64,000 bases of DNA. Origin: Paenibacillus sp. DCT19 (GTDB lineage Bacteria > Bacillota > Bacilli > Paenibacillales > Paenibacillaceae). The stretch covers positions 476,501 to 540,500 of the forward strand of contig NZ_CP029639.1 in NCBI RefSeq assembly GCF_003268635.1, read 5' to 3'. Shown here in pieces: positions 1,769 to 48,407 of this stretch (positions are counted from its first letter, which is position 1; each line of letters begins with the position of its first letter). The notes below the pieces were generated by a model. That model made no database searches. It was not told where the DNA came from and was given only the letters and a program-made list of their open reading frames with translations. Position numbers and translations under genes: made by a program.

Positions 1769-2229
1769 ATGACTAAACCGATACGTAATTCGGCGAAAGC
1801 TGTCATTGTACAGGATGGACGATTGCTCGTGATTCGTGTGGAGGATCAGTACGGTACAGCGTATATTTTCCCTGGTGGGGACAAGAGAAATATGAGGAAT
1901 TGAAGGACAGCGTACTGCGGGAATGTCTCGAAGAGATTGGTCAGGCGGTTACAGTGGGTGAGTTGATGCACATTCGGGAGTATATCGGTAAAAACCACGA
2001 GTTCGCCGAGTGGGATGCGGATTACCATCAGGTCGAGTTTTATTTTGCATGCAGTTTAATCGATCCGGCAGCGACAAGTTACGAAGGCTCTAATCCAGAC
2101 AACCATCAGGTTGGTGTGGAATGGATTCCGCTTGAAGACCTGTCTAAGGTTCGGTTATATCCAAAAAGAATCGGAGAGATGCTGCTCGCACAGGACTCCT
2201 CCAAGATCTATCTTGGCGATCTGAACTAA
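1769..2229 (+). pseudogene. Nudix hydrolase, frameshifted at a G run (probably a sequencing error)
   Basis: Nudix hydrolases cleave nucleoside diphosphates linked to another moiety; the substrate here is unknown. Reading from ATG 1769 (AGGAGAG upstream) gives M-T-K-P-I-R-N-S-A-K-A-V-I-V and reaches F-P-G-G at the start of the Nudix box, then stops at once. The second half of the box, with R-E-C-L-E-E-I-G, continues one frame over to 2229. Adding one G to the four-G run at 1877-1880 rebuilds a complete box G-G-G-Q-E-K-Y-E-E-L followed by x-R-E-x-x-E-E-I-G, and gives a 153-residue protein of normal size. The gene follows pxpA by 15 bases and is likely in that operon. I regard the break as a base-calling deletion; a recent true mutation cannot be excluded. 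Confidence 0.8.
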
Positions 2230-2414
2230 CAGTAACTAATCAAATAGATGTGCCTATTTTGATATATAAACATTTTAATAAATAAAATTTCCAGTATTGT
2301 CACGTTTGCAGGTCCGGTTCATGGATTCACCAATGATGAGGTGGGTACACTATAAGTACAGGCTTATACAACAATATCGTTATAAGCGGTGCCAGTTGAA
2401 GAACTCTGAAAGTA

Positions 2415-2547
2415 GTGAAGGGAACGGAATCGATTCTGAAGAAGCAAAGCGCTCGCCTTTGTTTCTGAATTTTATACCGATAGAAATTTCAATGAGAAAA
2501 TTCAGAAACAACAGCGATCGAAAGAACGATCCGTAACCGTAACGTCA
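2415..2547 (+). repeat. Intergenic repeat family A, copy 1
   Basis: This stretch fills most of the gap between the Nudix and PPOX genes. It contains AAAGCGCTCGCCTTT (2447-2461) and AACAGCGATCGAAAGAACG (about 2510-2528), both of which recur near 11.2 kb, and the second recurs reversed at 10.7 and 28.1 kb. Between them lies a perfect 13-base inverted repeat, GTTTCTGAATTTT against AAAATTCAGAAAC, so the unit can fold into a long hairpin. A short open frame across it has no coding look. Orientation is called plus by the AGCGCTCGCC arm. Confidence 0.6.
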
Positions 2548-2595
2548 CACACAGCTTCTGTCAAAATACCCCCAAACCCGAAAGGAGCAACTCCC

Positions 2596-3012
2596 ATGAA
2601 CCGGACTGAATTGGAAGAGAACATTGTAAAGGCATTAGAGAATAATCCGTTTTGTAGCTTCTCCACGGTGGAGAATGGCAAACCCAAATCTCGCTATATG
2701 GCTCTGTTTAACGATGGAATGAACATTCATCTTGCAACGAATCGTCGCACGCATAAGGTAGAAGAATTGGAGAACAATCCGAATGTAAGCCTTCTGCTTG
2801 GTTATGAGTCGGGTGGCTCCAAAGAAGTTGTTGAGGTAGAAGGAACGTGTGAAATCACGAAAAACGAAGGATTGCGTGAACAGGTGTGGAATGATGAATT
2901 GAAGGCATGGTTTGACGGTCCTCAGGATCCGAATTATGTCATTCTGGACATTACACCAACGCGGATTGAATATACGGGGAAAGATCACGAACATCAAGTG
3001 TGGGAACAATAG
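2596..3012 (+). CDS. Pyridoxamine 5'-phosphate oxidase-like FMN-binding protein
   Basis: A 138-residue split-barrel flavoprotein of the PPOX/general stress protein 26 type. The layout is typical: M-N-R-T-E-L at the start, F-C-S-F-S-T-V-E-N-G-K-P-K-S-R-Y-M in the first strands, I-H-L-A-T-N-R-R-T-H-K-V with the basic FMN-phosphate contacts, then V-S-L-L-L-G-Y and a C-terminal I-E-Y-T-G-K-D-H-E-H-Q-V-W. Such proteins bind FMN or a related cofactor and act in redox or stress responses; the true substrate is usually unknown. AAAGGAG precedes ATG 2596 with normal spacing. It appears monocistronic, with a terminator at 3077-3107. Confidence 0.85.
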   Translation: MNRTELEENIVKALENNPFCSFSTVENGKPKSRYMALFNDGMNIHLATNRRTHKVEELENNPNVSLLLGYESGGSKEVVEVEGTCEITKNEGLREQVWNDELKAWFDGPQDPNYVILDITPTRIEYTGKDHEHQVWEQ

Positions 3013-3076
3013 AATTCGTACTTATGAATCACCTTTTGCGAACGATGCGTGAATGCACTGTTTCGGAAGAGGTTTC

Positions 3077-3107
3077 AACCGTGAGGCCATGTGGCTTCGC
3101 GGTTTTT
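3077..3107 (+). terminator. Rho-independent terminator after the PPOX gene
   Basis: AACCGTGAGGCC pairs with GGCTTCGCGGTT around an ATGT loop and runs into six T residues. Confidence 0.75.
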
Positions 3108-3279
3108 TGAGGTTAGACATAATCGTTCTAAAATGGATATACATGTAAGATGAATGTAATATACGTATTTAGCATGATGAGTAAACTATTTTTAGAAAAA
3201 AACGCGAGGAATTTGTCGAAATTACGCATGATTGTGTAAAGTAAGGCAGGTATGTGCGGATAACGTAAAAAAATAAAGC

Positions 3280-3308
3280 TTTTCAACGACTTCACATTGC
3301 GGTATTAT
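3280..3308 (+). promoter_or_regulatory. Candidate promoter for the secreted nucleotidase
   Basis: TTTTCA (3280-3285) and TATTAT (3303-3308) are 17 bases apart, a plausible sigma-A promoter. It would give a leader of about 170 bases before the TTG start at 3488. I see no clear riboswitch or hairpin in that leader. Confidence 0.45.
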
Positions 3309-3487
3309 TTGGAATGTAAACGACACGCACAGATATGAATAGATGTTCATGTGAGATAAACTAACCTGGAATTTTGATGGTTTCATCAGAAGATCAGCAC
3401 GCACAACCCATGGAATCTATCTTGGTCTGCGCTTGTTCGTTTGCGTACTAATGCATGATTCAATGTACATAACCGGGAGGGGTTATT

Positions 3488-5745
3488 TTGAAAAAGAGTA
3501 AGAAAGTATTATCAAGCCTGACTGCCGCTTTGGTTGCATTTAACGTGCTTGCGGTATTTCCAGTACCAGTATCGGCTGCGGACGCTGCCAAAGTTAAATT
3601 GCGGATTATGGAAACGACAGATATTCACGTCAATCTGCACAACTACGACTATTATTCTGACAAAGAAACCGATCAGTATGGACTGGCTAAGACAGCAACT
3701 CTGATCAAAAATGCACGTGACGAGGCGAAGAACAGCCTGCTATTTGACAATGGTGACTTGATTCAAGGAAATCCTTTGGGGATTATGTTGCCAAGATTGA
3801 TCCACTGAAAAAGGGTGAAACTCACCCTGTATATAAAGCAATGAACCTGCTTGATTATGATGCAGGGAACATTGGTAACCACGAATTTAACTATGGCCTT
3901 GATTTCTTGGATATGACGCTTGAAGGCGCTAATTTCCCTTATATCAATGCCAACGTATATATCGATGACGGTGATGATGATGAAACGAATGACAAGAACT
4001 ATTTCACACCGTATGAAATTCTCGACAAAAAAGTAACGGACGAAGATGGCAAAGAGCACACGATCAAAGTGGGCGTGATTGGCTTCGTTCCACCACAAAT
4101 TATGCAATGGGATAGCGCGAATCTTGAAGGTAAAGTCATTGCCAAGGATATAATCGCAACTGCGAAAAAATTCGTTCCACAAATGAAGGCTGAGGGTGCT
4201 GACATTATTGTTGCTATTCCTCACTCCGGTTTCGAGGATATCCCTCAAACAGACCTGATGGAGAACTCCGTATTATATCTGAGCCAAGTTGAAGGTATTA
4301 ACGCGATCTTGTTCGGACATGCCCACAAAGTCTTCCCAAGTGCTGATTTTGCAGGTAAAAAAGGTGTAGATCTTGAAAAAGGTACAATTAATGGCGTTCC
4401 ATCTGTTGAACCAGGTTTCTGGGGCGATCACCTAGGTATTATTGATCTGGATCTGGAGCAAGTAGACGGCAAGTGGAAAGTAGTGGATTCTTCTACAGAA
4501 GCACGTCCGATCTATGATACAGCGAACAAAAAACCATTGGTGGACGCTGACCAAGAGATCATTGATGCTGTGCACGAAGAGCATGAAGGTACACTTGAAT
4601 ATGTTCGTGGTCCTGTTGGCGAGACAACTGCACCAATCAACAGCTTCTTCGCACTCGTTCAAGATGATCCATCCATTCAGATCGTAACGAATGCACAGAA
4701 ATGGTATGTTGAGAAACATCTGCAAGGAACGGATTATGAGAATATTCCTGTATTGTCTGCTGGAGCGCCATTCAAAGCAGGTGGACGTTCAGGTGCTTCG
4801 TACTACACGAATATTCCTGCTGGTACGATCGCAATCAAGAACGTAGCGGATCTGTACGTATATCCAAATACGGTACATGCTGTTGAGATCAACGGTGCTG
4901 AACTCAAAGAATGGCTCGAATGGTCTGCAGGACAATTCAATCAGATCGACCCTGCCAAAGGTGGACAGCAGCAATTGATCAATATGGACTTCCCAACATA
5001 TAACTTTGACGTTATTGACGGGGTGACATATCAGATCGATGTGACACAACCAGCGAAATACGATGCCAAAGCAACAGTGGTTAATGAATCCGCAAGCCGG
5101 ATTAAGGATCTGAGCTTTGAAGGTAAACCGGTTGATCCAGCACAAAAATTCATTGTAGCTACGAATAACTATCGTGCTTCTTCATCCAAACTGGCCAATC
5201 CAGATGGTAAACGCATCGTTCTGGCTGCACCGGATGAGAACCGTCAAGTCATTATCGATTATATTCGTGAGAACAAAACGATTAACCCAACAGCTGATGG
5301 TAACTGGTCTTTGGCACCAATTAAACCGTCAGCAGGTGTAACTGCAGCAGCCTTGAATGATCTCGAAGTGGTGTTTGCTTCTTCTCCAGATGCGAAGGCT
5401 CTGGTTGAAGCTAATCCAGCGATGTCTTTCATCGGTACAAACGAAGATGGTTTTGCTGAGTATGGTTTGAAATTGACAGGAGACGCGGTTACAACTCCAA
5501 CAACAGGGGCTGAGCCTACTCCAACGCCAGCACCAACTCCGACACCTGCACCGGCTCCAACACCTAAGCCACAACCGGAAAAACCTGCAAAGGACAACGT
5601 GGTATATGTGGTGAAAAAAGGAGATAACCTGTACCGCATCGGATTGAAATATGGTGTGGACTGGCGCAAACTCGTAACGGTAAATGCAATTAAAGATGTG
5701 CACAACTTGAAAGTTGGACAGAAAATCATAATTCCTGCTTCCTAA
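3488..5745 (+). pseudogene. Secreted 5'-nucleotidase / 2',3'-cyclic phosphodiesterase with C-terminal LysM, frameshifted at a G run
   Basis: An extracellular nucleotide-salvage enzyme of the UshA/YfkN type. TTG 3488 with GGGAGGGG upstream starts a signal peptide ending near V-S-A-A-D. The metallophosphatase domain shows T-T-D-I-H, F-D-N-G-D, G-N-H-E-F and F-G-H-A-H. The 5_nucleotid_C domain follows, then a Pro/Thr linker and a LysM domain starting Y-V-V-K-K-G-D-N-L-Y-R-I at the C-terminus, which should hold the enzyme on peptidoglycan. The frame breaks at 3778-3781: four Gs read L-G-I-M-L and stop at 3808, whereas five Gs give L-G-D-Y-V-A-K-I-D-P and a continuous 752-residue protein. All metal-ligand motifs survive, so I believe the gene is functional and the break is a sequencing deletion. 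A long track-like ORF from 3841 is only its downstream part. Confidence 0.88.
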
Positions 5746-5760
5746 TGTGCAGATTGACGA

Positions 5761-5789
5761 CCGACAGTCTTAAGACTGTCGGTTTTTTT
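5761..5789 (+). terminator. Rho-independent terminator after the nucleotidase gene
   Basis: A perfect 22-base palindrome (CCGACAGTCT, loop, AGACTGTCGG) is followed by seven Ts, 16 bases beyond the stop codon. Confidence 0.9.
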
Positions 5790-5860
5790 GATAAGTCTAA
5801 AAGCTCACTCCCCGTCATAGAGGAAGTCACCAAAACAGTAGAGATTAATTTGAATACCCG

Positions 5861-5869
5861 TGCTATAAT
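5861..5869 (+). promoter_or_regulatory. Extended -10 promoter for the EAL gene
   Basis: TGCTATAAT is an extended -10 element (TGn plus perfect TATAAT). No convincing -35 hexamer lies 17 bases upstream, which fits an extended -10 promoter. The start codon is about 55 bases downstream. Confidence 0.55.
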
Positions 5870-5923
5870 ATTTACAAACTTTGGGTATATACTAATATTA
5901 ATGAAACGGCAAGGGGGTTCTAC

Positions 5924-6952
5924 ATGAATTGCAGTGGCTGCAGTCCAATTTATCCGATTGAGGATCAAGGTACTCTGTATCTGCGTCCGTTTTCCCCCAT
6001 TTTGCTGGAAGCGCTGCAAACGCAGGGGATGAGTAGCGAGCATTCAGATCGCTATATCTGGGTGCATTTTGACAATCTTGACATGCTGCAGAGCAATCTG
6101 GAGAAGATCAGGAAGCTGAATCAAGCTGTATTGGACACGATTTCATTTCAAGTGAGAGCAATCCGTGAGCAGGCAGACCAGGAAGACTGGATCAGTCTGG
6201 GAATGCTGGAGAATCGGTTCAAGCATGCGGATATGGTTTCGATTATTTTAGAAAAAAGATTCAGTAGTCATATGCAGCCCATTGTGGATGCTTCACAGCA
6301 AATTATTGGATATGAATTCCTCTTACGTCCTGCTGAGAACGGAAGATCATTCAATGCGTATGAATTGTTTGAAATTGCACGGGATACGGGATTGCAATCC
6401 TTTTTAGATCGAACAGCAAGGATCTCGGCCATTGAGACGAGTTCCGTTTTTTTGCCACAGGGAATTAAGCGTTTTGTTAATTTCTTACCTTCCTCCATAT
6501 ATAACCCCGAATACTGCTTAACACATACATTTGAAGTCATTGAACGATTAAGGTTAGACCCTAAAGACTTTGTATTTGAAGTTGTTGAAACTGAGCCGAT
6601 TAAACACATGGATGCCTTACAGCATATTTTTCAGGTATATCGTAATCATGGGATGTCTGTAGCGCTGGATGATGTGGGAGCCGGGTTTTCGACGGTAGAG
6701 CTGATGAATCGATTAGAACCGGATTTTGTCAAAATAGATCGGAGTCTCATTGATCATTGTGATGATGATCCTGTAAAACAGCAGAAAATCATTCATATTG
6801 TCGAGATGTCGCGTCGATTTGGCGGTCAGGTGCTTGCCGAAGGCGTGGAACGCATCGAAGAATTTGAGTTTTGTCGATCTGCCGGGATCGAGCTGGCACA
6901 GGGATATTATTTTGGGAAACCTGTGGCACAGCCTCCAACCTATTCGAATTGA
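5924..6952 (+). CDS. EAL domain protein, predicted cyclic-di-GMP phosphodiesterase
   Basis: 342 residues with an EAL domain over roughly residues 105-340 and an N-terminal region of about 100 residues, which begins M-N-C-S-G-C-S-P and has no domain I recognise. The catalytic signature is E-F-L-L-R (E131) in place of E-A-L-L-R. Other expected residues are present: N in N-F-L-P-S-S, E-V-V-E-T-E, the loop-6 motif as D-D-V-G-A-G (normally D-D-F-G-T-G), K in V-K-I-D-R-S, E-G-V-E-R and Q-G-Y-Y-F-G-K-P. The metal and base residues therefore look complete, so hydrolysis of c-di-GMP to pGpG is likely, though the loop-6 change leaves room for a c-di-GMP sensor role. AAGGGGG precedes the ATG. It stands alone, next to a chemoreceptor gene. 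Confidence 0.88.
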   Translation: MNCSGCSPIYPIEDQGTLYLRPFSPILLEALQTQGMSSEHSDRYIWVHFDNLDMLQSNLEKIRKLNQAVLDTISFQVRAIREQADQEDWISLGMLENRFKHADMVSIILEKRFSSHMQPIVDASQQIIGYEFLLRPAENGRSFNAYELFEIARDTGLQSFLDRTARISAIETSSVFLPQGIKRFVNFLPSSIYNPEYCLTHTFEVIERLRLDPKDFVFEVVETEPIKHMDALQHIFQVYRNHGMSVALDDVGAGFSTVELMNRLEPDFVKIDRSLIDHCDDDPVKQQKIIHIVEMSRRFGGQVLAEGVERIEEFEFCRSAGIELAQGYYFGKPVAQPPTYSN

Positions 6953-7045
6953 AAATAGTATCAATACCAAATATGACCTTACACCTCGAACAAGTCACTT
7001 CGTATAGAAGTTGGCTTGTTTGGCATGCAATGTCCATTTTTTATA

Positions 7046-7074
7046 TCAAATAAATCCCCCCATTCAGCCGATAT
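7046..7074 (+). promoter_or_regulatory. Candidate sigma-D (motility) promoter of the chemoreceptor gene
   Basis: TCAAA (7046-7050), 16 bases, then GCCGATAT (7067-7074) matches the sigma-D pattern TAAA-N15-GCCGATAT closely at the -10. Its place about 80 bases before a chemoreceptor start fits a flagellar regulon gene. Confidence 0.55.
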
Positions 7075-12442: not shown

Positions 12443-12526
12443 CGCGGTTTATGAAATAATCCCATATTTTACATTAATTCTACGATGAAGGATGGTTGTT
12501 ATGGAACAGACCGAAGGGGAACGGTA

Positions 12527-17560: not shown

Positions 17561-18833
17561 ATGAAGAACAGCCAGGAGAGGGTAGAAAAGTCTGATAACC
17601 AGCCTGGCGGCTGGAAGCATGCCGGACTGTTATTAGGTGGAGTGGGTATATCCAACCTGGGTGATTTTATCTACATTGTCGCTATCAACCTGATGGTGCT
17701 GAACATGACCCAATCTCCAGCAGCCGTAGCAGGGTTATGGATCATCTCGCCAATCGCTTCAGTATGCACCAAGTTCTGGTCAGGCAGTGTCATTGACCGC
17801 TACGATCAACGCCAGTTGATGATTGGGCAGATATCATACGGGCATTGCTGGTCGCGACACTTCCCTTATTTTCAAATCTGTGGATGATGTATGCTGTGAT
17901 GTTTCTGATTAGTATGTCGTCCTCGATATTTGTACCTTCTTCCCAGGTGTACATTACTCGGCTGGTACCGGCTGAGCGGCGTAAGCGATTCAATTCGATG
18001 CAGGCACTCATTAGCTCAGGAGCTTTTATTACGGGGCCTGCTGTAGCTGGCGTATTATTGTTCTATCTATCCCCGCAGTAGCGATCTACGTGAATAGTGT
18101 TTCGTTTGCTGTGTCCGCTCTGATTCTTATGATGTTGCCGAAATTGGGTATAGGCGAGCAGCGTGGTGGGCCATCGAAATTGTCGCCGCGGATCATCGCT
18201 CAGGACTGGCAAGCCGTGCTAAGGTTTAGCCGCAAGAGTGGTTACGTTGTAGGGATTTACGTCATTTTTCAGATTGTTCTCGTCATTGGCATGTCGCTGG
18301 ATGCACAGGAAGTCGTGTTTATTCGCCAGGTGATGAACTTGTCTGAATCTCAATACGGGGCATTGATGAGTGTTACTGGCGTCGGTTATCTAGTTGGTTC
18401 GCTGCTTGTCACCCTGTTTGCCAAACATATTCCGATCCGTCATATGATGGGGATCGGCGTGCTTATGGTTTCGCTTGGTTATTTCCTATTTGCACGTTCG
18501 TTTTCCTTCGAGCTTGCAGCGTTCGCCTTTATCTTGCTTGGGCTGTGCTCAGCACTTGCCAACACAGGCCTGATTACCTTTTACCAGAATAATATTCCGG
18601 TAGATCTAATGGGCAGGATGAGCAGTGTCATTGGACTGATGCTGAGCGCGCTTCAAGTGGCTTCTATTTTGATTGCAGGGGTAGTGGCAGAATATTTATC
18701 CCTTCGTCTTGTGTATACGGTTGTCTCAGCAGCCATGATGTTAGTGGCACTTATCTTATGGATCACCAGCTTGCTTCCTTCAAGAAGTTCGTATTATCAA
18801 GAGGCTGTGACGAAGAGTGCAACGATGAAGTAG
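17561..18833 (+). pseudogene. MFS efflux transporter, two frame breaks at G/C runs
   Basis: A drug-efflux-like major facilitator, begun by an ATG touching the ydbT stop. The frame breaks twice. At 17825-17827 (GGG) one more G turns an early stop into M-I-G-A-D-I-I-R-A-L-L-V-A-T-L-P. At 18071-18074 (CCCC) one more C continues L-S-P-A-V-A-I-Y-V-N-S-V-S-F. With both repaired the protein has 424 residues and about twelve spans, the normal MFS size, with the loop-2 basic motif V-I-D-R-Y-D-Q-R-Q. Both breaks are single-base losses in homopolymers, so I expect the gene to be intact in the organism. Position after ydbST suggests a role in antimicrobial tolerance; substrate unknown. Confidence 0.82.
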
Positions 18834-19264: not shown

Positions 19265-19520
19265 ATGATAACGAGCGGGAGAGACCTGAGTTGGCTAAGT
19301 AAGATGGCCTGCGATCAGGCACCGAAGGAGCAAGCTGCCTACGCACCCGGCGCGGCGGTTAATCTCTCAGGTAAATGTACCATCGTTGGACGCAACTCTG
19401 GAGAGTGCGCATGATGCGCCACCCAAGGGGTATATGATTAAACAGCTTGGTACAGTATGTGTAAGAACAAGGCATGCACTGTATCGACTGACGCTGTTGA
19501 TCATGAAACTCTCAGGTATC
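19265..19520 (+). ncRNA. Tandem glycine riboswitch (gcvT type)
   Basis: Two glycine aptamers in series. The first opens with GCGGGAGAGACC, has CACCGAAGGAGCAAGC and closes with AATCTCTCAGGTAAA and ACC-TCG-TTGGACG-like bases; the second begins GCAACTCTGGAGAGTGCGC, has GCGCCACCCAAGGGGTA and closes with GAAACTCTCAGGTATCGAGGACAGAG. These are the class hallmarks. Unusually for the class it controls serine dehydratase rather than the gcv cleavage system. A terminator follows directly (19523-19562), so this is an ON switch at the level of termination: glycine should allow read-through and so drain serine made from glycine to pyruvate. Confidence 0.93.
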
Positions 19521-19522
19521 GA

Positions 19523-19562
19523 GGACAGAGAGAGGGCTTAAGGCCTTCTTCTGTCCTTTTTT
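19523..19562 (+). terminator. Expression-platform terminator of the glycine riboswitch
   Basis: GGACAGA...GGGC, loop TTAA, GGCC...TCTGTCC then six Ts. The 5' side of the stem (GAGGACAGAG) is shared with the P1 region of the second aptamer, which provides the glycine-dependent switch. Confidence 0.88.
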
Positions 19563-19641
19563 GATGTCATCATTCAGTAATAATGGAACGTTATGGTTAA
19601 GTATCTGGATGAACATGACGAATACAAATGGAGGGTTTTTG

Positions 19642-20331
19642 ATGCGTTTTAAAGATGTTTTCTCAATTATTGGTCCATCCATGACGGGACCTTCAAGTTC
19701 ACATACGGCTGGTGCGGCGAGACTTGGCAGAATTGCTCGTCAGTGGTTGGGTTGTACGCCGGAGCGCGCCCGGTTAACACTATACGGATCGTTTGCCGAT
19801 ACGTATCAAGGGCATGGCACAGATCTTGCGCTAATCGGCGGATTGCTTGATTATGCGACAGACGATCCGCGAATACCGGATGCTGAAGAGTATGCAGAGC
19901 AAGCGGGTATGGAGGTTGAGTTTTTCACAAGTGGCCTACCTGCTCCCCATCCCAATACGGTCAAAATTGAACTGTGGCACGGTGACCGTGAATGTTCATT
20001 GATTGGTGCGTCCATTGGGGGCGGCAGTGTGTCAGTGCATGCCTTGAATGATTTTCGCGTCCAGATCAGTGGGGAGTTCCCAACATTGGTGCTGCGTCAT
20101 GCGGACAAAGCAGGGGTGCTTGCATCCGTGACGTCCACCATCAGTTCCTCAGGCGTGAACATCGGTTATATGCAGGTAGACCGGAAAGGTCGGGATGGTG
20201 AAGCATTGACTGCGATGGAGATGGATGGGGCGCCAGACCCGAATATGTTAAGCCGTTTGAAGTCGCTGGATCATGTGCTGGATATTCGTGTAATTGATTT
20301 GAAGAAGGGAGTGAGTCCAGATGCGATTTAA
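19642..20331 (+). CDS. sdaAB: L-serine dehydratase, iron-sulfur-dependent, beta subunit
   Basis: The 229-residue beta subunit of the [4Fe-4S] L-serine deaminase, which converts serine to pyruvate and ammonia. It has the family start F-K-D-V-F-S-I-I-G-P-S-M-T-G-P-S-S-S-H-T and a C-terminal ACT-like domain (residues about 150-225) with L-R-H-A-D-K-A-G-V-L-A and V-N-I-G-Y-M-Q-V-D-R. ATG 19642 is right: GGAGG lies eight bases before it, and the longer frame from 19561 begins inside the riboswitch terminator. It overlaps sdaAA by 11 bases. Confidence 0.95.
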   Translation: MRFKDVFSIIGPSMTGPSSSHTAGAARLGRIARQWLGCTPERARLTLYGSFADTYQGHGTDLALIGGLLDYATDDPRIPDAEEYAEQAGMEVEFFTSGLPAPHPNTVKIELWHGDRECSLIGASIGGGSVSVHALNDFRVQISGEFPTLVLRHADKAGVLASVTSTISSSGVNIGYMQVDRKGRDGEALTAMEMDGAPDPNMLSRLKSLDHVLDIRVIDLKKGVSPDAI

Positions 20332-21259
20332 GCATTTGCATGAACTGAATACGATCTGCACGGCTGAATCCAAGACCATTGCTCAGTTAATGATTGAAGA
20401 ACAAGTCCAAGAGACGAATACGCCGGAAGCAGATGTCGTGCAGCAGATGTCTGAATATTATCAGGTGATGAAGGAAGCGGTTCATAAAGGACTGAATGAA
20501 GATACAGTTTCGCGCAGTGGTCTGACTGGTGGAGACGGCAAGAGGATGGCGGAATACATTCGTAAAGGAGAGACTTGCTCAGGTGATGCTTCAGCACTTG
20601 CGATGGCATATGCCCTGTGTGTCTCTGAAGTCAATGCATCCATGGGGCGAATTGTTGCTACACCGACAGCGGGTTCGTGCGGCATTATTCCAGGTGTGTT
20701 CATCAGTTCACAAGAACGTTTTGGCTGGACTGACGAGCATCTGGTTAACGGACTGTTCTGTGCTGGGGCGATCGGATATGTTATTGCAAACAATTCGTTT
20801 ATCTCTGGTGCTGAGGGTGGCTGTCAGGCTGAGGTAGGCTCCGCGATTGGTATGGCGGCGGGTGCTATGGTTGAGCTACGTGGAGGCACGCCGGAGCAGG
20901 TTGTTCATGCGGTAGGTTTGGCGTTAAAAAATACACTCGGTCTTATCTGCGATCCAGTCGCAGGTCTCGTCGAAATTCCTTGCATCGTCCGCAACGGACT
21001 GGGCGCTGTAACCGCTCTAGCCGCTGCTGATATGGCACTTGCTGGGGTGCGTAGCGCCATTCCATCGGACGAAGTGATTGATGTCATGCTTGAAGTGGGC
21101 AGTGCTATGCCAAGCAGGCACCGTGAGACGGCTCAAGGTGGACTGGCTCAGACCCCGACAGGACGCAAAATGATGGAGAAGCTTGCGAAACCGAAGGCAA
21201 AGCGTGCTCCGGAACCAGAGTTAGAAACAGACGGGGCAGCAGGTTCAACGTCAGAATAA
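20321..21259 (+). CDS. sdaAA: L-serine dehydratase, iron-sulfur-dependent, alpha subunit
   Basis: The 312-residue catalytic alpha subunit. Cluster and active-site blocks are present: S-R-S-G-L-T-G-G-D-G-K, A-T-P-T-A-G-S-C-G-I-I-P-G, A-E-G-G-C-Q-A-E-V-G-S-A, and L-I-C-D-P-V-A-G-L-V-E-I-P-C. The three cysteines in these last three blocks (G-S-C-G, G-G-C-Q and I-P-C) are the expected cluster ligands. The last 30 residues are charged and variable (K-P-K-A-K-R-A-P-E). The start overlaps sdaAB, and the operon ends in a strong bidirectional hairpin. Confidence 0.95.
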   Translation: MRFKHLHELNTICTAESKTIAQLMIEEQVQETNTPEADVVQQMSEYYQVMKEAVHKGLNEDTVSRSGLTGGDGKRMAEYIRKGETCSGDASALAMAYALCVSEVNASMGRIVATPTAGSCGIIPGVFISSQERFGWTDEHLVNGLFCAGAIGYVIANNSFISGAEGGCQAEVGSAIGMAAGAMVELRGGTPEQVVHAVGLALKNTLGLICDPVAGLVEIPCIVRNGLGAVTALAAADMALAGVRSAIPSDEVIDVMLEVGSAMPSRHRETAQGGLAQTPTGRKMMEKLAKPKAKRAPEPELETDGAAGSTSE

Positions 21260-27341: not shown

Positions 27342-28075
27342 ATGAGCTTTGCGACAACCTATTTCCGAATCCTGTCTTCTGAACGGTTAAAAATGGGGAA
27401 ATCTCCGATCTGGCTTTTAATTCTGCTTAGCCCGTTAATCGCGCTGCTCATCGGCTTGCTGTCATCGCCTTCTGGGCAATGGGAAGTGCTGATGAGTACA
27501 ATGGTGCTCCTTCATGGCTTACTGCTGCTCCCAATTCTGACTGGTGTATTTACTTCTTTTGTCTGTCGATTTGAACATTCGGGCGGAGGGTGGAAGCAGA
27601 TGCTGGTCTTACCGCTTACACGCACTGGTGTATATGCCGCCAAGCTCACCATTGTGTTGTTGCTCTTAGCGGGTACACAAGTGTTGCTATTTGCAGCCAT
27701 TATGCTGGCAGGTCTCGTTCATGGTATAACGGAACCAATACCGTGGGGATTAATTGTGGGTAAGTTATCCCTTGGACTATTCGCCTGTGTGCCACTCGCT
27801 GCGCTACAACTGCTGGTCTCCTTGATCTGGAGCAGCTTTGCCGCACCACTCGCGCTGAACTTTGCTCTAACGGTACCGAATATTCTGATCGTGAACTCGG
27901 TGACATTTGGTCCATATTATCCATGGGCACAGCCGGTCATTCTTATGGCACCGATGGAAGGCGGGGATTTGGAGCCTACAATGTTCCGCTGGCGACGATG
28001 CTGACGGTTGTTGGTGGGAGTGCTGTTCTTTTTATCCTCGCAGGTATTCTCTATTTCAAGAAAAAAGAGATCTGA
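27342..28075 (+). pseudogene. ABC-2 type permease, LanE/LanG-like, second of two; frame break at a G run
   Basis: Partner of the preceding permease, with the same class loop, H-S-G-G-G-W-K-Q-M-L-V-L-P-L-T-R, and six spans. The frame stops at 28004, cutting the last span. Adding one G to the run GGGG at 27963-27966 restores E-G-G-G-F-G-A-Y-N-V-P-L and a final hydrophobic helix ending F-K-K-K-E-I with a stop at 28073-28075, giving 244 residues, like its partner. The gene is otherwise intact. I judge the break to be a sequencing deletion. Confidence 0.85.
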
Positions 28076-35313: not shown

Positions 35314-35477
35314 GCGTAAGCGGGCATACGGCATAAGATCCACTGCTGTTCGTGCTATGATTGCCCATCTTCGGACTGTTATAATAAGCTCCATAACAAC
35401 AAGAAAATCAGCAAACAAAGCTTGCTCTGCATGATCATGATGGAGTGGTAGCGGTCGTATGCTAATGGGGATAATGA

Positions 35478-36308
35478 GTGGAGCTGCAACGAAGCTGGCA
35501 AAGATTGCTGGGACTGTGGACAGATCGACCCTTGCCAAAGGGGGCAAAAATAGCGGAAAGATATACGATATGCGAATTGCTTGGTATGGGAAGCTACGGA
35601 CTGACATACCTCTGTATAGATGAACAAACAGGAGATGAGGTTGCGTTAAAAGGTTCGAAGCCCAGCAAAGGCAAGTTATCTGCCCGATTGCTGAGTAGAG
35701 AAGCAGATGTGATGAGCCGGCTGCAGCACCCGGCGATTCCCAAACTTTTGAATGCATTTATATATAAGGGAAGAAGTTACATTGCTATAGAATATATTCG
35801 GGGAGAGACGCTGGAGACGTATATCTTCGAACAGGGCCAGGTATATAGCGAACGAGAATGTATTGAACTGGCGAGCCAGTTATTATCTCCAATCGCTCAT
35901 GTTCATCAGCAGGGTTATATCCATGGGGATGTACGAATTCCCAACGTGATTATGAAGGATGGGCACTTGCATCTGATTGATTTTGGCCTGGCGAGGCAAA
36001 TGGGGGAGCCGTTGTTGCCAGAGCTGAAACGACGTATGCGTGAGTTGCCTGCACCTGAAGATGAACCAGCAACGCCTGATCAGGATTTGCAGGATCTCGG
36101 TCATTTTCTTCTATTTATGCTGTACTCTGCCTATGAACCAGAGAAAGGGAAAGCACCTGCAAGCTGGCAGGAGGAACTGGATCTTCAGCCGGATCTGGTC
36201 ATTATGCTGGAGAGGTTGCTGGGGCTTAGACCTGGGTATGAGGCGGGGGCACCCGAGCTGCAGGCTGAGATGCAGCGGATTCTGCCCAAGCTGCATGGAT
36301 CAGTTTAA
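35478..36308 (+). CDS. Ser/Thr protein kinase-like protein
   Basis: 276 residues with a eukaryotic-type kinase fold: glycine loop G-M-G-S-Y-G, lysine K58 in V-A-L-K-G-S, helix-C glutamate E75, then H-G-D-V-R-I-P-N (149-156) and D-F-G-L-A (168-172). The catalytic loop differs from the normal H-R-D-L-K-P-E-N: R becomes G and the loop lysine becomes R151+2, while the catalytic D151 and metal-binding N156 are kept. No transmembrane span or PASTA domains are present, so it is a soluble kinase, perhaps weakly active. GTG 35478 is the start, with GGGG seven bases before. Function unknown; two terminator-like hairpins follow. Confidence 0.83.
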   Translation: MELQRSWQRLLGLWTDRPLPKGAKIAERYTICELLGMGSYGLTYLCIDEQTGDEVALKGSKPSKGKLSARLLSREADVMSRLQHPAIPKLLNAFIYKGRSYIAIEYIRGETLETYIFEQGQVYSERECIELASQLLSPIAHVHQQGYIHGDVRIPNVIMKDGHLHLIDFGLARQMGEPLLPELKRRMRELPAPEDEPATPDQDLQDLGHFLLFMLYSAYEPEKGKAPASWQEELDLQPDLVIMLERLLGLRPGYEAGAPELQAEMQRILPKLHGSV

Positions 36309-39923: not shown

Positions 39924-40184
39924 GAAGATATCCCTCTTTCTGGAATAATATATTACTGAAGCCTTTCGGATCATCATGTGAAGTCTCAGAATTTTCTTTC
40001 CCTATTATATCACAAACGTAGTTTGCCGATAGAATGCTTAGTAAGCATTTTGACCGTATCTAAGGACGGCTAATAATCAGCAGATCATACGTATATCGCA
40101 CCGGTTGTAAGACGAACATTGTTCTTTGGAAATGGTTACTAGTGTAACCAATGGTAGGCGGTTTATTCGATTGAGGGACAAGTC
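39924..40184. other. Divergent region upstream of ccdC and the HEAT-like gene
   Basis: About 260 bases without a clear repeat or hairpin. I cannot name a promoter with confidence. Confidence 0.3.
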
Positions 40185-41339
40185 ATGAGTGAATATATGA
40201 GAAACAGAGTGCAGTGGTTTGGGAAATCCATGTCGGGATGGACGGAAACGGGAAGTAGTTATTTGGTTCAGGTGACCGGTTTAATCTGTGGAGGCGTGTT
40301 GGTGACACTCCTGGCCATCTATCTCGTTTTGTTGTGGAGAAATCGGCTGAAGCAACGAACGCTAAAACTCCAAAAAAAGGCCTTTCGCGACCTAATGGCT
40401 GATGATTCTTCACTTCGTCACTACCTTGCAGGAGGAGAGATCACACCAAAGCTGCTGGATGTGAGGAAAGTTCAGCAAAAAGCGCTACAGGAAGTGTTAC
40501 TGCAACAACTGGAGGAAAGTACGGATGATCTCCAAAGGGAACGGATTCGCTTCCTCGCAGGACAGGCCTTTGGTACGTTGTACCGGACACAGCTTGGTTC
40601 GATGAAATGGAGTGAACGTATTAATACATTGCTCTACATAGAGCAGTTTCAGATGACGGAACTTCTACCTAGGCTGGAAGAGATGATGCGTTCTTCGTTA
40701 TGTTCGATCCAGGAACGTTTTATTATTTTGAGAATTTACGCTAGATCAGGCTATGTACGATTAGTGAAAGAGCTGCTTAAGAGAAACACAGCCATGTCGG
40801 ATTCGCAATATTTGCAGATCATGCTATTACTTACGGATGAGATCTGGGAGAAGGTCGTTGACCACTATGCGGAGCTTCCTGTGCAGGCAAAGTGTAGCGT
40901 CGTGGATGCCATGCGTATTCGAAATGTGCAAACGACGAGGGAGCTGGCGTTATTAGAACGACTGCTATTCGAAGATCATGTAGAGCAGCGCATCTTTTCG
41001 CTGCGTGCCTTAGCCCAGATCGGCAGGATGAGTGATGGAACCAAGGATAAGCTATTACTTGCTTGGCATGAAGAGAGATGTATTCGATCACGTCTAGAAC
41101 GACTTATGTACGCTAGGTTGTTGGGACGTGTTCACACAGAGGGATTTATTGAGCATCTGAATGGACTTATGGGTGATCCCGCTTACGAAATAAGGCAGGA
41201 AGCTGCTAACTCTCTCGCTCAATATGATCAAGGAATCGAGAAATTACGCTGCGTAGCAAGAGTACATCCGGACAAATATGCGAGGCAGATAGCGGAAGAA
41301 ACGCTGGAAAGGAAGCAGTATGAACGAAAGATGGCTTGA
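40185..41339 (+). CDS. Membrane-anchored HEAT-repeat-like protein
   Basis: 384 residues: a short head, one membrane span (about 28-48, L-I-C-G-G-V-L-V-T-L-L-A-I-Y-L-V-L-L-W) and a long all-helical cytoplasmic part with paired helices of HEAT/armadillo type (for example M-G-D-P-A-Y-E-I-R-Q-E-A-A-N-S-L-A-Q-Y at about 327-345). Such domains are protein-docking surfaces. It overlaps the next gene, a membrane glycosyltransferase, by 20 bases, so the two are translated together and probably work as a complex, with this protein as partner or regulator. GAGGGA precedes ATG 40185. No exact family name. Confidence 0.75.
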   Translation: MSEYMRNRVQWFGKSMSGWTETGSSYLVQVTGLICGGVLVTLLAIYLVLLWRNRLKQRTLKLQKKAFRDLMADDSSLRHYLAGGEITPKLLDVRKVQQKALQEVLLQQLEESTDDLQRERIRFLAGQAFGTLYRTQLGSMKWSERINTLLYIEQFQMTELLPRLEEMMRSSLCSIQERFIILRIYARSGYVRLVKELLKRNTAMSDSQYLQIMLLLTDEIWEKVVDHYAELPVQAKCSVVDAMRIRNVQTTRELALLERLLFEDHVEQRIFSLRALAQIGRMSDGTKDKLLLAWHEERCIRSRLERLMYARLLGRVHTEGFIEHLNGLMGDPAYEIRQEAANSLAQYDQGIEKLRCVARVHPDKYARQIAEETLERKQYERKMA

Positions 41340-43101: not shown

Positions 43102-43144
43102 CGTGTTTATGAGTTACTCGCGGGATATGGTAGGAGACAGTTAA

Positions 43145-43720
43145 CTAATTGTCTGTACGAAGATGCTTTAAGCCGTCAAGGAAGGCTGAAATCGTAAGAT
43201 GTAGGCTCTCGCTTGCTTCGAAATTCATGGCGAACCCACCTTGTGCACCAATGGAGGCAAAGCCATGACACAGACTTCGTAGTCCACGCACCGCATGAAG
43301 CGCATCGGCTTCGGACAGTCCATACGGCTGTAAAGAGTCTAGCAACAACTGTAGCGCTACGGTGCTGGCCGCAGCGAGTTGTGGCTCATCCCGATCAGGG
43401 GCATGGAAGGAAGCTTCGTAAAGCCCAGGGTGCTGGCGTACAAAATGAATATAGGCGGTAGCGATATCCTGAATGGCTTCGCTACCGACACGTCCTGCGG
43501 CGGCCACGGTTAAAGCCTGGCCGAGCTGCTCTACGGACATCAGCGCAAGTTCCTGGCGAAGCCCGGGTAAACCGCTGATGTGGTTATAAAGCGACGGGGA
43601 GCGCACATCGAGCCGCTGGGCCAATGCGGCCAGCGTCAGCGCATGAAATCCGTCGCTGTCAGCAAGCTGGGACGCGGCATTCAGCAGCATGCCGCGATCC
43701 AGCCCTTGCCGCGGGCTCAT
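43145..43720 (-). CDS. TetR-family transcriptional regulator
   Basis: 191 residues. The N-terminal HTH reads L-A-A-L-A-Q-R-L-D-V-R-S-P-S-L-Y-N-H-I (about 30-48), and the C-terminal part belongs to the WHG (TetR_C) type: R-G-L-R-S-L-C-H-G-F-A. It overlaps the MBL hydrolase gene by four bases and is its downstream partner, so both are probably repressed from the two operators at 44458-44496. The pair is clearly more GC-rich than its neighbours. The inducing ligand is unknown. Confidence 0.88.
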   Translation of the reverse strand: MSPRQGLDRGMLLNAASQLADSDGFHALTLAALAQRLDVRSPSLYNHISGLPGLRQELALMSVEQLGQALTVAAAGRVGSEAIQDIATAYIHFVRQHPGLYEASFHAPDRDEPQLAAASTVALQLLLDSLQPYGLSEADALHAVRGLRSLCHGFASIGAQGGFAMNFEASESLHLTISAFLDGLKHLRTDN

Positions 43721-44442
43721 CGAAGCCCTCCGGCAGGGCGCAGCCGTTGCTCGGCGTCAGCCATTGCTGCGCGCATCGCCGCTGCCGGCTGACGTAACAT
43801 TCGTCCGTGGCCTACAGCCAGCACGGACGGCTCCAGCTCAGCCAAGCGCTTGGCGCTGGCAAGAGCGGTTTCACGGTGCCATGTGGCAAGCGCAGGAAAT
43901 GGAAAGAGTGGGCGTAGCTGACCGGCAACGGCCAAGCCGCCATGCAGTTGATAGGCATCGCCGGCGATGAGGACGCCGCTGCGCGTATCCATAAACGCCA
44001 TATGCCCTGGTGTGTGACCAGGAGTAGCAATCGCCAGTAACGATCCAATGCGATCCCCATCTTCGAGCAGGCGATCGGGGCGGGTGTGAATGTTCTTGGG
44101 TACACTGCCCCGTACCGGAGTCTGCGGTTCATCAGGTAATAACGAAGCATCTCCAGTGAGTAGTGCAGCGTCCCGTCTAGAGATGATCACCTCTACATCA
44201 GGGAGTGCATTCTTGAGACCGTCTAAGGCGCCAACATGGTCACCATGGGCGTGAGTTAGAATCACTTTGGTGATAGGTTTGTTAAGAGATTGAGCAGTGG
44301 CGAGGATACCCTTGAGACTGAACGGCATCCCTGCATCGACAAGAGTTAATTCACTGTCCTCTTCAACAAGATAAACGTTCACAGGAAAGAGCCGAGGTAG
44401 GAATGAAACCTGAATGACATTATATTCACATGTAATACGCAT
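43717..44442 (-). CDS. MBL-fold metallo-hydrolase
   Basis: A 241-residue metallo-beta-lactamase-fold hydrolase with T-H-A-H-G-D-H-V-G (H-x-H-x-D-H zinc motif), A-T-P-G-H-T-P-G-H and G-D-A-Y, followed by a late V-G-H-G-R. A member of the broad group that includes lactonases, glyoxalase II and sulfur dioxygenases; substrate unknown. AAGGAGG lies seven bases before ATG 44442. It leads a two-gene operon with tetR. GC content rises through the 3' half. Confidence 0.88.
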   Translation of the reverse strand: MRITCEYNVIQVSFLPRLFPVNVYLVEEDSELTLVDAGMPFSLKGILATAQSLNKPITKVILTHAHGDHVGALDGLKNALPDVEVIISRRDAALLTGDASLLPDEPQTPVRGSVPKNIHTRPDRLLEDGDRIGSLLAIATPGHTPGHMAFMDTRSGVLIAGDAYQLHGGLAVAGQLRPLFPFPALATWHRETALASAKRLAELEPSVLAVGHGRMLRQPAAAMRAAMADAEQRLRPAGGLR

Positions 44443-44457
44443 CGTAATTCCTCCTTA

Positions 44458-44496
44458 AAACTAATGGTATTAGTAATATAACTAATGTCATTAGTT
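44458..44496. promoter_or_regulatory. Two palindromic operators upstream of the MBL/TetR operon
   Basis: AACTAATGTCATTAGTT (44480-44496) is a perfect 17-base palindrome about a central T. A second, near-perfect one (AAACTAATGGTATTAGTA) lies at 44458-44475. Their position 16-55 bases before the MBL start is right for self-repression by the TetR regulator. Confidence 0.7.
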
Positions 44497-44558
44497 TTCG
44501 CAATACCCTTTGCAAAAATAAACAAAGATACGAAAAGATTATTTTAACAAAAAAAGCG

Positions 44559-44656
44559 TTTTCAAAATAAAGATTACCGATTATAATGATCAAGTAAGCC
44601 CTTTCATATGTCTATCTTATTGGAGCCTTTCGCGAAGCGGAGGGCTCACTTTTTTG
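44559..44656 (+). ncRNA. Candidate short transcript (orphan promoter plus terminator)
   Basis: TTTTCA (44559-44564), 17 bases, then TATAAT (44582-44587) is a good promoter. About 35 bases downstream GAGCC..GCG pairs with CGC-like..GGCTC (44623-44647) and is followed by six Ts. No plus-strand gene lies between, so a transcript of about 65 bases from about 44594 to 44656 would result: either a small RNA or an attenuated leader of the Rrf2 gene, which starts 207 bases on and has its own strong promoter. Confidence 0.4.
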
Positions 44657-44771
44657 TTTTCTTTAATAGGTTAAATACATAGTGATCAAGTAAAGGGTGA
44701 GCTTGGATGTGAGGCTGTATATATAGACACATCAAGGGATATCCTGTGTTCAGGCACTGCGAGAGAAGAAG

Positions 44772-44809
44772 TTGACAAACATAACTGTCATTCATATAAT
44801 AACAGTTAT
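44772..44809 (+). promoter_or_regulatory. Consensus promoter with overlapping operator of the Rrf2 gene
   Basis: TTGACA (44772-44777), 17 bases, TATAAT (44795-44800): a perfect sigma-A promoter. ATAACTGT (44781-44788) and ACAGTTAT (44802-44809) form an inverted repeat spaced 13 bases, wrapped around the -10, as expected for autorepression by the regulator. Confidence 0.75.
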
Positions 44810-44862
44810 ACTTACCTTGGATTGAAGTCCATCGGTGTTTTTTGCCGGGAAGGGAGTAAGTC

Positions 44863-45327
44863 ATGAACAGCGAGTTTACCATTGCCGTCCATTGTCTTGT
44901 GTTTCTATCCATGAAGGAAGACTGTATGGCCAATAGTGAAGATTTATCTCAGAGTGTAGGTACACACCCTGCAAGAGTTCGTAAGGTGCTGAGTGTGCTG
45001 CGGAAGCATGGGTATTTGACAACCAAAGAAGGCGCTCACGGAGGGTACCTGCTTAATCGTGCAAGTGATGAGATCAAGCTTGGGGAATTGTACAGACTGG
45101 TTGCCGGAGGTTCACTTGGACCCAATTGGTGTTCTGGCGAATCAGGTTCGCCATGCGTTGTGTCCTCTAACATGAGGGATGTCATGGGAGGCATATATGA
45201 CGGAGGCGAGGAAGCGCTGAGCATTTATTTTGATCGCATTTCCATCGAGGATGTGAAGCATCGGATCGGGAAAAGTGAAGGGCTATCTAAGTCCATGAAT
45301 GAGTTACTGAGACAAGATAAGAATTAA
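44863..45327 (+). CDS. Rrf2-family transcriptional regulator (YwnA-like)
   Basis: 154 residues with the Rrf2 start N-S-E-F-T-I-A-V-H-C-L-V-F-L-S and wing H-G-G-Y-L-L-N-R-A. In NsrR and IscR three cysteines bind an iron-sulfur cluster; here only two central cysteines occur (P-N-W-C-S, eight residues, P-C-V), so a cluster is doubtful and thiol sensing is possible. AGGGAG precedes ATG 44863. Its own strong promoter carries an inverted repeat. A nitroreductase lies downstream and may be a target; a YwnB-like reductase also occurs at 58.5 kb, and B. subtilis ywnA is adjacent to ywnB. Confidence 0.87.
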   Translation: MNSEFTIAVHCLVFLSMKEDCMANSEDLSQSVGTHPARVRKVLSVLRKHGYLTTKEGAHGGYLLNRASDEIKLGELYRLVAGGSLGPNWCSGESGSPCVVSSNMRDVMGGIYDGGEEALSIYFDRISIEDVKHRIGKSEGLSKSMNELLRQDKN

Positions 45328-45658
45328 TTCTGGCTACAGAATTGATGTGGCTACAGTTTATATGTATACATTTCATATTTAGGCTCAGTTCTGATACCCT
45401 GTGATTATGGGGACACTGCAGACTGCGTATAGAACATAACAAGCGTTGCCCCGGTTTCGCGATTCATGAAGGCTTCAAGATTATTCCGGGCATAACGTGA
45501 ACACAGATAGAGTTAATCTTCTGCGCTGATGTTATTTTCGGAAGGTGGGTATGTCATTACACCACTTATCATGGTTGTTGGATCAAAGCCTTGCGAAATT
45601 AAAAGCGATATAACAGCAATGATATTTACAATAATCAATAGAAATAGGAGTGGAGAAC
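45328..45658 (+). other. Long gap between the Rrf2 and nitroreductase genes
   Basis: About 330 bases. No clear terminator after the Rrf2 gene, so the two could share a transcript. I see no hairpin or operator I can name; a promoter cannot be called with confidence. Confidence 0.3.
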
Positions 45659-46276
45659 ATGTCTAACAATGAAACACTTCGCGTAATTAGCGAACGTCAC
45701 GCTGTCAAAAAATACGAAAAAGGTTTTGTATTGCCTGAGGCTGACCTGAATGCAATCTTGACTGCAGCTTCCGAAGCACCATCTTCTTGGAATCTGCAAC
45801 ACTGGAAATTCCTCGTTATTGAATCCGAAGCGGACAAAGCTAAATTGTTGCCAATCGCTTATGGCCAAAGTCAAATCGTAGACAGCTCGGTTACAATCGC
45901 TGTTCTGGGTGACCTGGAAGCTAACCGCAACACCTTCATCTACGATCAAGCTGTTGAAGCTGGTGCATTGCCTGGTGAGGTTCGTGATGCGTTGGTTGGA
46001 CAAATCAACGGTGCTTACCAAAGCGCGCAAACTGCTCGTGATGAAGCGATCCGTAACGCGTCATTTGCTTCACAAAACATTATGCTCGCTGCACGTTCTT
46101 TGGGATATGATACTTGCCCAATGGGTGGTTACAATCCACAACAATTGGTTGAAACGTTCAACATTCCTGCACGTTACATCCCAACATTGTTGATCACTGT
46201 TGGTAAAGCTGCAGAGCCAGCTCGCCCAGCAGGTCGTTTCCCATTATCTGAAACTGTAGTTAAAGGTTCTTTCTAA
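45659..46276 (+). CDS. NAD(P)H-dependent nitroreductase
   Basis: A 205-residue FMN enzyme of the nitroreductase family (YodC/YdgI branch). Marks: E-R-H-A-V-K-K-Y-E (the basic FMN contact R-x-x-x-K-K-Y), A-P-S-S-W-N-L-Q-H-W-K-F (FMN ring contact), A-S-F-A-S-Q-N-I-M-L-A-A and G-Y-D-T-C-P-M-G-G-Y near the C-terminus. Such enzymes reduce nitro compounds or quinones. ATG 45659 has AGGAG eight bases before. Codon use is very even and highly biased, suggesting strong expression. A terminator follows. Confidence 0.92.
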   Translation: MSNNETLRVISERHAVKKYEKGFVLPEADLNAILTAASEAPSSWNLQHWKFLVIESEADKAKLLPIAYGQSQIVDSSVTIAVLGDLEANRNTFIYDQAVEAGALPGEVRDALVGQINGAYQSAQTARDEAIRNASFASQNIMLAARSLGYDTCPMGGYNPQQLVETFNIPARYIPTLLITVGKAAEPARPAGRFPLSETVVKGSF

Positions 46277-46319
46277 GATAGAGCTACTATAAGCACCATT
46301 ATACGGTGTGTATAAATTC

Positions 46320-46357
46320 AGCCGCATGTTCCTCAAGTGAGGGAACATGCGGCTGTT
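46320..46357 (+). terminator. Rho-independent terminator of the nitroreductase gene
   Basis: GCCGCATGTTCC pairs with GGAACATGCGGC around a short loop, then GTTTTG. Confidence 0.85.
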
Positions 46358-46381
46358 TTGCGTTCGAATACGGGAACCGGC

Positions 46382-46567
46382 ATGAGTCCTCAGGTATGTA
46401 ATACAGATCTTACGGGTGACGGTAGAGAAGAAGCAGTCATTATCATTCAGACGGGCAAAGGTACAGGGCTGGATAACTTCGATATTGATGTTCTTGGAGG
46501 TGACCAACCAAGCATTTGTCCATTGATCCAAGACAACCCCTTACCGTACAGCCAGCGATTAGACTAA
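46382..46567 (+). pseudogene. Remnant of a repeat-type (VCBS/FG-GAP-like) protein gene
   Basis: The 61-residue frame contains D-L-T-G-D-G-R-E-E-A-V-I-I-I, a calcium-binding-type D-x-T-G-D-G motif followed by a beta-strand, as in FG-GAP/VCBS modules, then I-D-V-L-G-G-D-Q. It lacks an N-terminal signal and a ribosome site and is far too short for the family. I take it as a fragment of a secreted-protein gene rather than a working gene. Confidence 0.4.
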
Positions 46568-46693
46568 GTGCATCTTGCCTGCCAAAGTCTTCTCGTGATC
46601 TGTGATAAGGGGCTTTTAAATTTCTGAATAGAATGGAGGTTACAGCGCAATTTCGCCTGTTATTCCACTGCTGTTACAGAAATAATAATTGAA

Positions 46694-47377
46694 TTATTTT
46701 TCAGGTGTTTCGGGGACTACTGGTGCGTGAAAGTTATCCATATGTTCAATCGCATTGAACATCATCACAGCAGCTTCTGCGCGAGTAATAGCCTCTTTGG
46801 GATGGAAATTGCCTTCGGCATCCAATGTGTTAATCTTGAACGCTAACGAGCGCTGAACTGCTCCTTGATACTCAGGCGTAAGCTCTTGCTCATCTGTAAT
46901 ATCTACAGGTTGAAGCTTGATCATCGGTAGGCCGCCTTTGGCTTCGATGCCTTGCATGATGAACAGTGTAAATTGCTCACGAGTCATCGGTTTGGATGGA
47001 TCGATATCATCAGCCATCTGGATGCCATTATATTTTGCACGAATGAAGGCATTGCTGTACCACACATGATCAAGCACCTTGGAGAAGGAATCACTTGGTA
47101 GAGGTTCTTTGACAAAACGGATCGTATCCAAATTCAGATCCAGGCCATCTGCAAGCAACTGTATACCTTGTGCCGTGTTTAATTGTTGTTCTGGTTTGAA
47201 CAGGTTGTCGCTCACGCCTTTAATCAGACCATCTTGATGCAATGCTTCAATTTTATCTGCTCCCGCAACTCCCTGAAGATCTGTGAATCCGCCTTGCGCA
47301 GCATGAATAGGTGTAGCACCAAGAGATAAGGTAAGTAATGCTCCAGCAGTCATCAAAGCAATTATATTTTTTTTCAT
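46694..47377 (-). CDS. SLH-domain secreted protein
   Basis: 227 residues with a signal peptide (M-K-K-N-I-I-A-L-M-T, cut after H-A-A-Q) and S-layer homology-like repeats: G-F-T-D-L-Q-G-V-A-G-A-D-K-I-E-A-L-H-Q-D-G-L near residue 30 (F-T-D-L plus G-L-I-K-G), a middle M-T-R-E-Q-F repeat and a final I-T-R-A-E-A-A-V-M-M-F. SLH domains bind pyruvylated cell-wall polymers, so this is probably a small wall-bound protein. The ATG at 47377 is chosen because the five residues before it are not part of a signal peptide. Confidence 0.83.
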   Translation of the reverse strand: MKKNIIALMTAGALLTLSLGATPIHAAQGGFTDLQGVAGADKIEALHQDGLIKGVSDNLFKPEQQLNTAQGIQLLADGLDLNLDTIRFVKEPLPSDSFSKVLDHVWYSNAFIRAKYNGIQMADDIDPSKPMTREQFTLFIMQGIEAKGGLPMIKLQPVDITDEQELTPEYQGAVQRSLAFKINTLDAEGNFHPKEAITRAEAAVMMFNAIEHMDNFHAPVVPETPEK

Positions 47378-47505
47378 ATCAAGTCGCCTCACTTTTCTAG
47401 GAAGGGTATCCCTTTGTATTAAAGTTATTTGCCCCTATAGACGACCCATCCCTGCAAAAGGTTGCTGCATTTTTCCATATATATTTTATGATATATAAAA
47501 TTGAG

Positions 47506-48407
47506 CTACCCTTTGGACTTGTTCCGATAGTCGGTGGGTGATTTACCAATCATTTTACGGAATAACCGTGAGAAATAATACGGGTCTTTGAAGCCGAGTT
47601 TGGAGCTAATCTGCTTCACCGTCCAATCGGTAAAGTCAAGGTAACGACAGGAATGTTGGATCTTCAGCCTTAGAAAATAATCAATTGGAGAATGTCCTGT
47701 CGCTTGCTTGAACAGTTGTGAATAATGCGGGCAGATAAGCTGGCTTGTGCAGCCAATTCTTTGAGTGTGACCCCGCTTTCCAGATGCTCCAGCATGTACT
47801 GCACAGACTGTTCGGCAGCTCGTTTGCTGCTAATCATATTGCCCTCCGTACCATGTCCGTAAGCGAGCATGCCTAACATATATCCAACAATCTGTGAGGC
47901 GTACGTCATCGTTTGTAAAGAATAACCCGTCTCCAATGCTCCATAACATTCATGATATAGTTCCAGCCACTTCTGAGCTTTCGCCGGAGCCATAGTTAAC
48001 AAACTTTCAGCCAGCAGTGGCTCCATATAGGCAGCGGCATGTTCACCACGTAAGTGAATCCAATAGATACTCCAGGGATCGGCTGAGTATGCGCCATAGA
48101 TATGTGCGACATGGGCAGGAAGAACAACGAGACTGCCTGCTTTAACATCCTGCCTTTTGCCACCGTCCGTGGCGTACCATCCTGTGCCTTCGGTACAATA
48201 CATTAAAATATGGGAGGGGCAGCCCTTTGGACGATCCCGGTAATGGTTCTCTGCCTCATGGAAGTATCCAATGTCAGTAACGTACAAACCGGACGTTACG
48301 GGATAAGCCGCGGCTTCCTCTAGTAGCGGGTCAGGTAATACGATTAGTTTCTGCATACGGAATCCGTCGGATTTGCGTAAGGTAGATGAGCTGTTATATG
48401 GTTTCAT
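47506..48407 (-). pseudogene. AraC-family regulator with cupin sensor, frame break at a G/C run
   Basis: A sugar-response type regulator: an N-terminal cupin (about 30-150) with G-T-G-W-Y and H-V-A-H-I-Y and a C-terminal pair of HTH motifs. The frame stops at 47670. Adding one base to the GGG run at 47729-47731 (C on the coding strand) restores L-S-A-P-H-Y-S-Q-L-F-K-Q-A-T-G and, later, I-S-S-K-L-G-F-K-D-P-Y-Y-F-S-R-L-F, the second HTH, ending at a TAG (47506-47508). The rebuilt protein has 300 residues, normal for the class. It is divergent from the lactonase gene, which may be its target. The break looks like a sequencing deletion. Confidence 0.82.

Follow-up and report, generated by a model that had tools for sequence, protein, structure and literature searches.

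Homopolymer indels in long-read bacterial assemblies, and the false pseudogenes that result from them, have been described before (PMC12007338; PMC8011154; PMC11017572). The errors reported in the Kastor (PMC12007338) and Homopolish (PMC8011154) papers resemble those that we describe here for Paenibacillus sp. DCT19, i.e., one-base homopolymer deletions that split genes genome-wide and inflate the pseudogene counts. However, the bases involved are different. A/T runs were deleted about twice as often as G/C runs in the nanopore assembly of Kastor (PMC12007338), whereas in DCT19 nearly all of the losses are in G/C. The false pseudogenes of public genomes (PMC11017572) are, as in DCT19, due to technical frameshifts, which vary with the platform, the coverage and the assembler used. 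The article is a survey, whereas here run-length rates have been measured in one genome. A literature search for G/C-specific deletion at the consensus level retrieved no relevant paper. Homopolymer indels that rise with run length are also known from mismatch-repair mutator strains, and DCT19 shares this dependence. However, in DCT19 the changes go in one direction, affect one base class and are as common in coding as in noncoding sequence, unlike what is found in such mutators.

The window, i.e., the whole stretch of 64,000 nucleotides analyzed, covers positions 476501–540500 of a single-contig Paenibacillus genome of 6.67 Mb (6,667,063 bases). The nearest relative was P. tundrae (G013, taken as DS1314), with DNA ca. 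89–94% identical over the larger aligned blocks, while two more distant genomes of the same genus, G016 and G011, had 82–86% identity in the tested stretches. Conserved genes were sampled in three chromosomal regions far from one another, ca. 0.38–0.55 Mb (around the window), 2.0–2.2 Mb and ca. 4.5–4.6 Mb, and the first 200 kb were additionally compared with G016; the figures given below for the extent of the phenomenon in DCT19 refer to these samples. The main gene set comprised the P. tundrae genes conserved in G016 (n = 285, 302 kb). Four of the six window sites described below fall within this set, the MFS gene having failed the conservation filter.

The initial annotation had described six frame breaks in five genes of the window, each at a run of three or four G or C, and had proposed a comparison with close relatives. 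The runs are exactly where it had placed them, and in that comparison all six were one base short with respect to each of the relative loci whose alignment spanned the site (Table 1). The extra base in the relative was counted within 30 bases of the run. The locus counts include some genomes twice (e.g., P. tundrae at sites 2–5), and at sites 3–5 most of the 80 relative loci were too distant for blastn alignment. The gene families proposed (Nudix, 5'-nucleotidase, MFS twice, ABC permease and AraC HTH) were also recovered, as domains found either in orthologues or in the downstream pieces. Thus, the P. tundrae orthologue is a NUDIX protein (PF00293) of 153 aa at site 1, an ABC2_membrane_4 protein (PF12730) of 244 aa at site 5, and contains the AraC HTH at site 6. 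The downstream pieces in the window carry 5_nucleotid_C (the 5'-nucleotidase C-terminal domain) and LysM at site 2, and MFS_1 in the gene broken at sites 3 and 4. For site 6, an unbroken AraC protein from another assembly (P0001, 283 aa) was identical at 207 of 209 residues (99%) to the piece before the break, and the match resumes in another frame behind it. Inspection of the six sites by eye suggested a G run followed by A as a candidate run context.

Table 1. Runs of G or C in the window that are one base short with respect to related genomes.
Feature	Position	Strand	Gene or location	Extra base in relatives
Site 1, GGGG one base short	1877-1880	+	NUDIX-family gene, ~1770-2229	+1 base in 3/3 relatives
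Site 2, GGGG one base short	3778-3781	+	5'-nucleotidase/LysM gene, ~3488-5745	+1 base in 14/14 loci
Site 3, GGG one base short	17825-17827	+	MFS transporter gene, ~17561-18833	+1 base in 12/12 loci
Site 4, CCCC one base short	18071-18074	+	Second break of MFS gene, ~17561-18833	+1 base in 10/10 loci
Site 5, GGGG one base short	27963-27966	+	ABC-2 permease gene, ~27342-28075	+1 base in 29/29 loci
Site 6, GGG (C on gene strand) one base short	47729-47731	-	AraC-family regulator gene, ~47509-48407	+1 base in 3/3 relatives
Shortened G run	12516-12519	+	Just 5' of start codon	18 loci align; +1 base in 5/5 among the matches listed
Shortened G run	35467-35470	+	Near start of ORF 35478-36308	P. tundrae +1 base; G011 differs by -3, non-deciding
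Shortened G run	40175-40177	+	5' of ATG of ORF 40185-41339	P. tundrae (sole aligned locus) +1 base
Shortened G run	46609-46612	+	Intergenic	P. tundrae (sole aligned locus) +1 base

Four more shortened G runs were found in the window, all of them outside gene bodies (Table 1), three on the basis of one relative each. These runs, together with the genome-wide extent described below, go beyond the earlier reading of this DNA. The two located 5' of a start codon are probably ribosome-binding sites, and their shortening could mislead the calling of start sites or of ribosome-binding sites. A different situation was seen near window position 54703, at the start of ORF 54706–55632, where DCT19 and P. 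tundrae are separated by two gaps (net +2), which is not a simple run shortage. The window also contains a tandem glycine riboswitch (RF00504) at 19266–19391 (51.2 bits) and 19396–19530 (34.5 bits), directly 5' of ORFs 19561–20331 and 20321–21259, with matches to the L-serine dehydratase beta and alpha chains, respectively.

With the P. tundrae genes as query, 34 frame-changing events were detected in the 285 conserved genes of DCT19, and 29 of them were isolated one-base deletions, distributed over 26 genes. The three sampled parts contained 10, 14, and 10 events, so that all of these distant parts of the chromosome are affected. When the genes of G016 were used as query, DCT19 had 36 events in 276 genes. 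By the same procedure, P. tundrae had 4 events (258 genes) and 6 events (253 genes), and G016 had 9 (259 genes) and 11 (263 genes). Over the first 200 kb, with G011 as query, we found 9 events in 59 genes for DCT19 and 3 in 66 for G016. The direct count for this region against G016 gave 24 events among 173 genes in one direction and 26 among 177 in the reverse one. It was dropped as too noisy, since it included rRNA, short frames and many places detected in both directions, and this comparison has been used for single genes only. Events of -2, -4, +1, and +2 were also present in DCT19, and some of the events outside the one-base G/C-loss pattern may be real. Outside this pattern are a -2 event at ca. 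4529858, in an adenosylhomocysteinase-like gene, and a -4 event at ca. 2011472, in a cation:proton antiporter-like gene. In addition, an A run at position 53813 of DCT19 lacks one base compared with G016 and G011.

The deletions depended strongly on the length and base of the run. In the conserved genes, 25 of the 29 isolated one-base deletions were assigned to G/C runs of at least four. Two others were in T runs of eight, and the last two, one of them window site 2, were attributed to T runs of four that have a G run next to them or close by. Among G/C runs of length 1–3 none of 103741 had lost a base, and the loss then increased from 9/619 at four to 12/83 at five, 3/10 at six, and 1/1 at seven. 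A/T runs had lost one base in 0/577 cases at lengths 5–7 and in 2/10 at eight. The single gain found in the conserved genes of DCT19 was of one base, at a run of length 1. When P. tundrae (258 genes) and G016 (259 genes) were scored in the same way, no loss in a G/C run was detected; their A/T losses amounted to one run of three in each, plus one of nine in G016, and gains were few.

Coding and noncoding runs were compared between DCT19 and P. tundrae over 428,513 aligned bases, taking runs in which the four bases on each side were identical. G/C runs of five were one base shorter in DCT19 in 12 of 51 cases in coding sequence and in 10 of 32 in noncoding sequence (one further noncoding run was two bases shorter), and runs of six at 4/7 coding and 1/5 noncoding. 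No G/C run of five or six was longer in DCT19 among these identically flanked runs, coding or noncoding. Runs of four were shorter in 4 and longer in 1 of 339 coding cases, and shorter in 2 and longer in 1 of 78 noncoding ones, while three noncoding G/C runs of three were longer in DCT19. Since the loss rates at G/C runs of five are alike in coding and noncoding sequence, no selection is visible. Noncoding A/T runs varied both ways (e.g., at length four 3 were shorter and 7 longer, and at length seven 4 were shorter and 3 longer), as real evolution would make them vary. In coding sequence, one base was missing from two A/T runs of length six and from two of length eight.

PolC is essential in Firmicutes. 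In DCT19 polC (TIGR01405) is split near 2516869 into two frames (918 and 566 aa). In three of three relatives it is one frame of 1446 aa, and the G run at the DCT19 split has an extra base in them. No other match above the TIGR01405 cut-off was found in DCT19. If real, this break should be lethal. Also split is mutL (2890070–2892018), into 423 and 366 aa, a gene that is unbroken in the three relatives (746, 747, and 738 aa). The split is located at a G run that lacks one base with respect to P. tundrae; the alignments of the other two relatives miss the spot. The main mutS is a single open frame of 940 aa and dnaE is also open. Broken genes also include addB, ahcY, trmK-like, spoVD-like and murA-like genes, so the breaks are not concentrated in dispensable genes. 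The murA-like break was dropped as evidence for a damaged essential gene, because two other copies of murA are open.

The initial annotation had preferred homopolymer deletions to pseudogenes, a choice that the dependence on run length, the equal behavior of coding and noncoding runs, the presence of the losses in three parts of the chromosome and the break in polC bear out. The alternative of a real loss of these genes in the strain, through simultaneous frameshifts, could appeal to the breaks being present in the deposited sequence and to the five window genes having no known essential member among them. However, one-base losses in so many conserved genes (26/285), polC included, losses that follow run length and base rather than gene function, and noncoding runs affected as often as coding ones make real pseudogenization very unlikely. 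The split mutL, intact in the three relatives, could also point to a mutator lineage, in which mismatch-repair loss let the homopolymer runs shrink. Yet slippage in the cell should also produce gains, which are absent among G/C runs of length five and six, and should also affect A/T runs, none of which had lost a base at lengths 5–7 in the conserved genes (the exception, in the wider coding set, being the two shorter A/T runs of six). Selection should moreover have spared the coding runs, which are shortened at a rate like that of the noncoding ones, and polC is broken, so that we regard a mutator lineage as still less probable. The break in mutL is best explained as a further instance of the run shortening.

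The location of all the breaks at runs, with each gene going on in another frame, is also what programmed frameshifting, transcript slippage or phase variation would give, the proteins still being made in full. However, each of these genes occupies a single frame in the relatives, noncoding runs are equally short, and the pattern would not require any shared slippery site or structure. For phase variation, G/C runs of only three to five bases are short. Overall, we consider that such mechanisms have only a minute chance of being the explanation. Equally minute is the chance of a combination of both ideas, a living mutator strain whose mutL lesion is real, with hundreds of G/C runs truly one base shorter and slippage in transcription or translation rescuing the frames, including that of polC.

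We conclude that the six breaks are almost certainly consensus errors, i.e., residual homopolymer deletions, and that the genes are most likely intact in the living strain and are to be annotated accordingly. A single direction, a single base class, a steep dependence on run length, the absence of any trace of selection and a broken polC together indicate that it was the sequence, and not the cell, that lost the bases. The loss would thus have arisen during sequencing or consensus building, and the single contig suggests a poorly polished long-read assembly. A base-caller or an assembler probably under-counted G or C runs, more often the longer the run, and the errors left over would have remained uncorrected before the genome was deposited. 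Errors of this kind are expected to be one-base deletions in runs, with a rate that rises with length, blind to gene function and spread over the whole assembly. All of this is seen in DCT19, the spread in the three sampled parts. Against consensus errors we count the losses in T runs of eight, the A run at 53813, the coding A/T runs of six, the events of -2, -4, +1, and +2 bases, the occasional longer G/C runs and the noise in the comparison of the first 200 kb with G016. The preference for A/T runs in the nanopore assembly of PMC12007338, which does not match the DCT19 data, also counts against them.

At ca. one event for every 10 kb of conserved coding DNA, extrapolation indicates that annotators would count several hundred false pseudogenes in this genome, polC and mutL among them. 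A table of losses by run length and base is a simple test for such errors, for which a related genome suffices, without any reads. The DCT19 genome might otherwise be wrongly taken to show gene loss or a mutator state.
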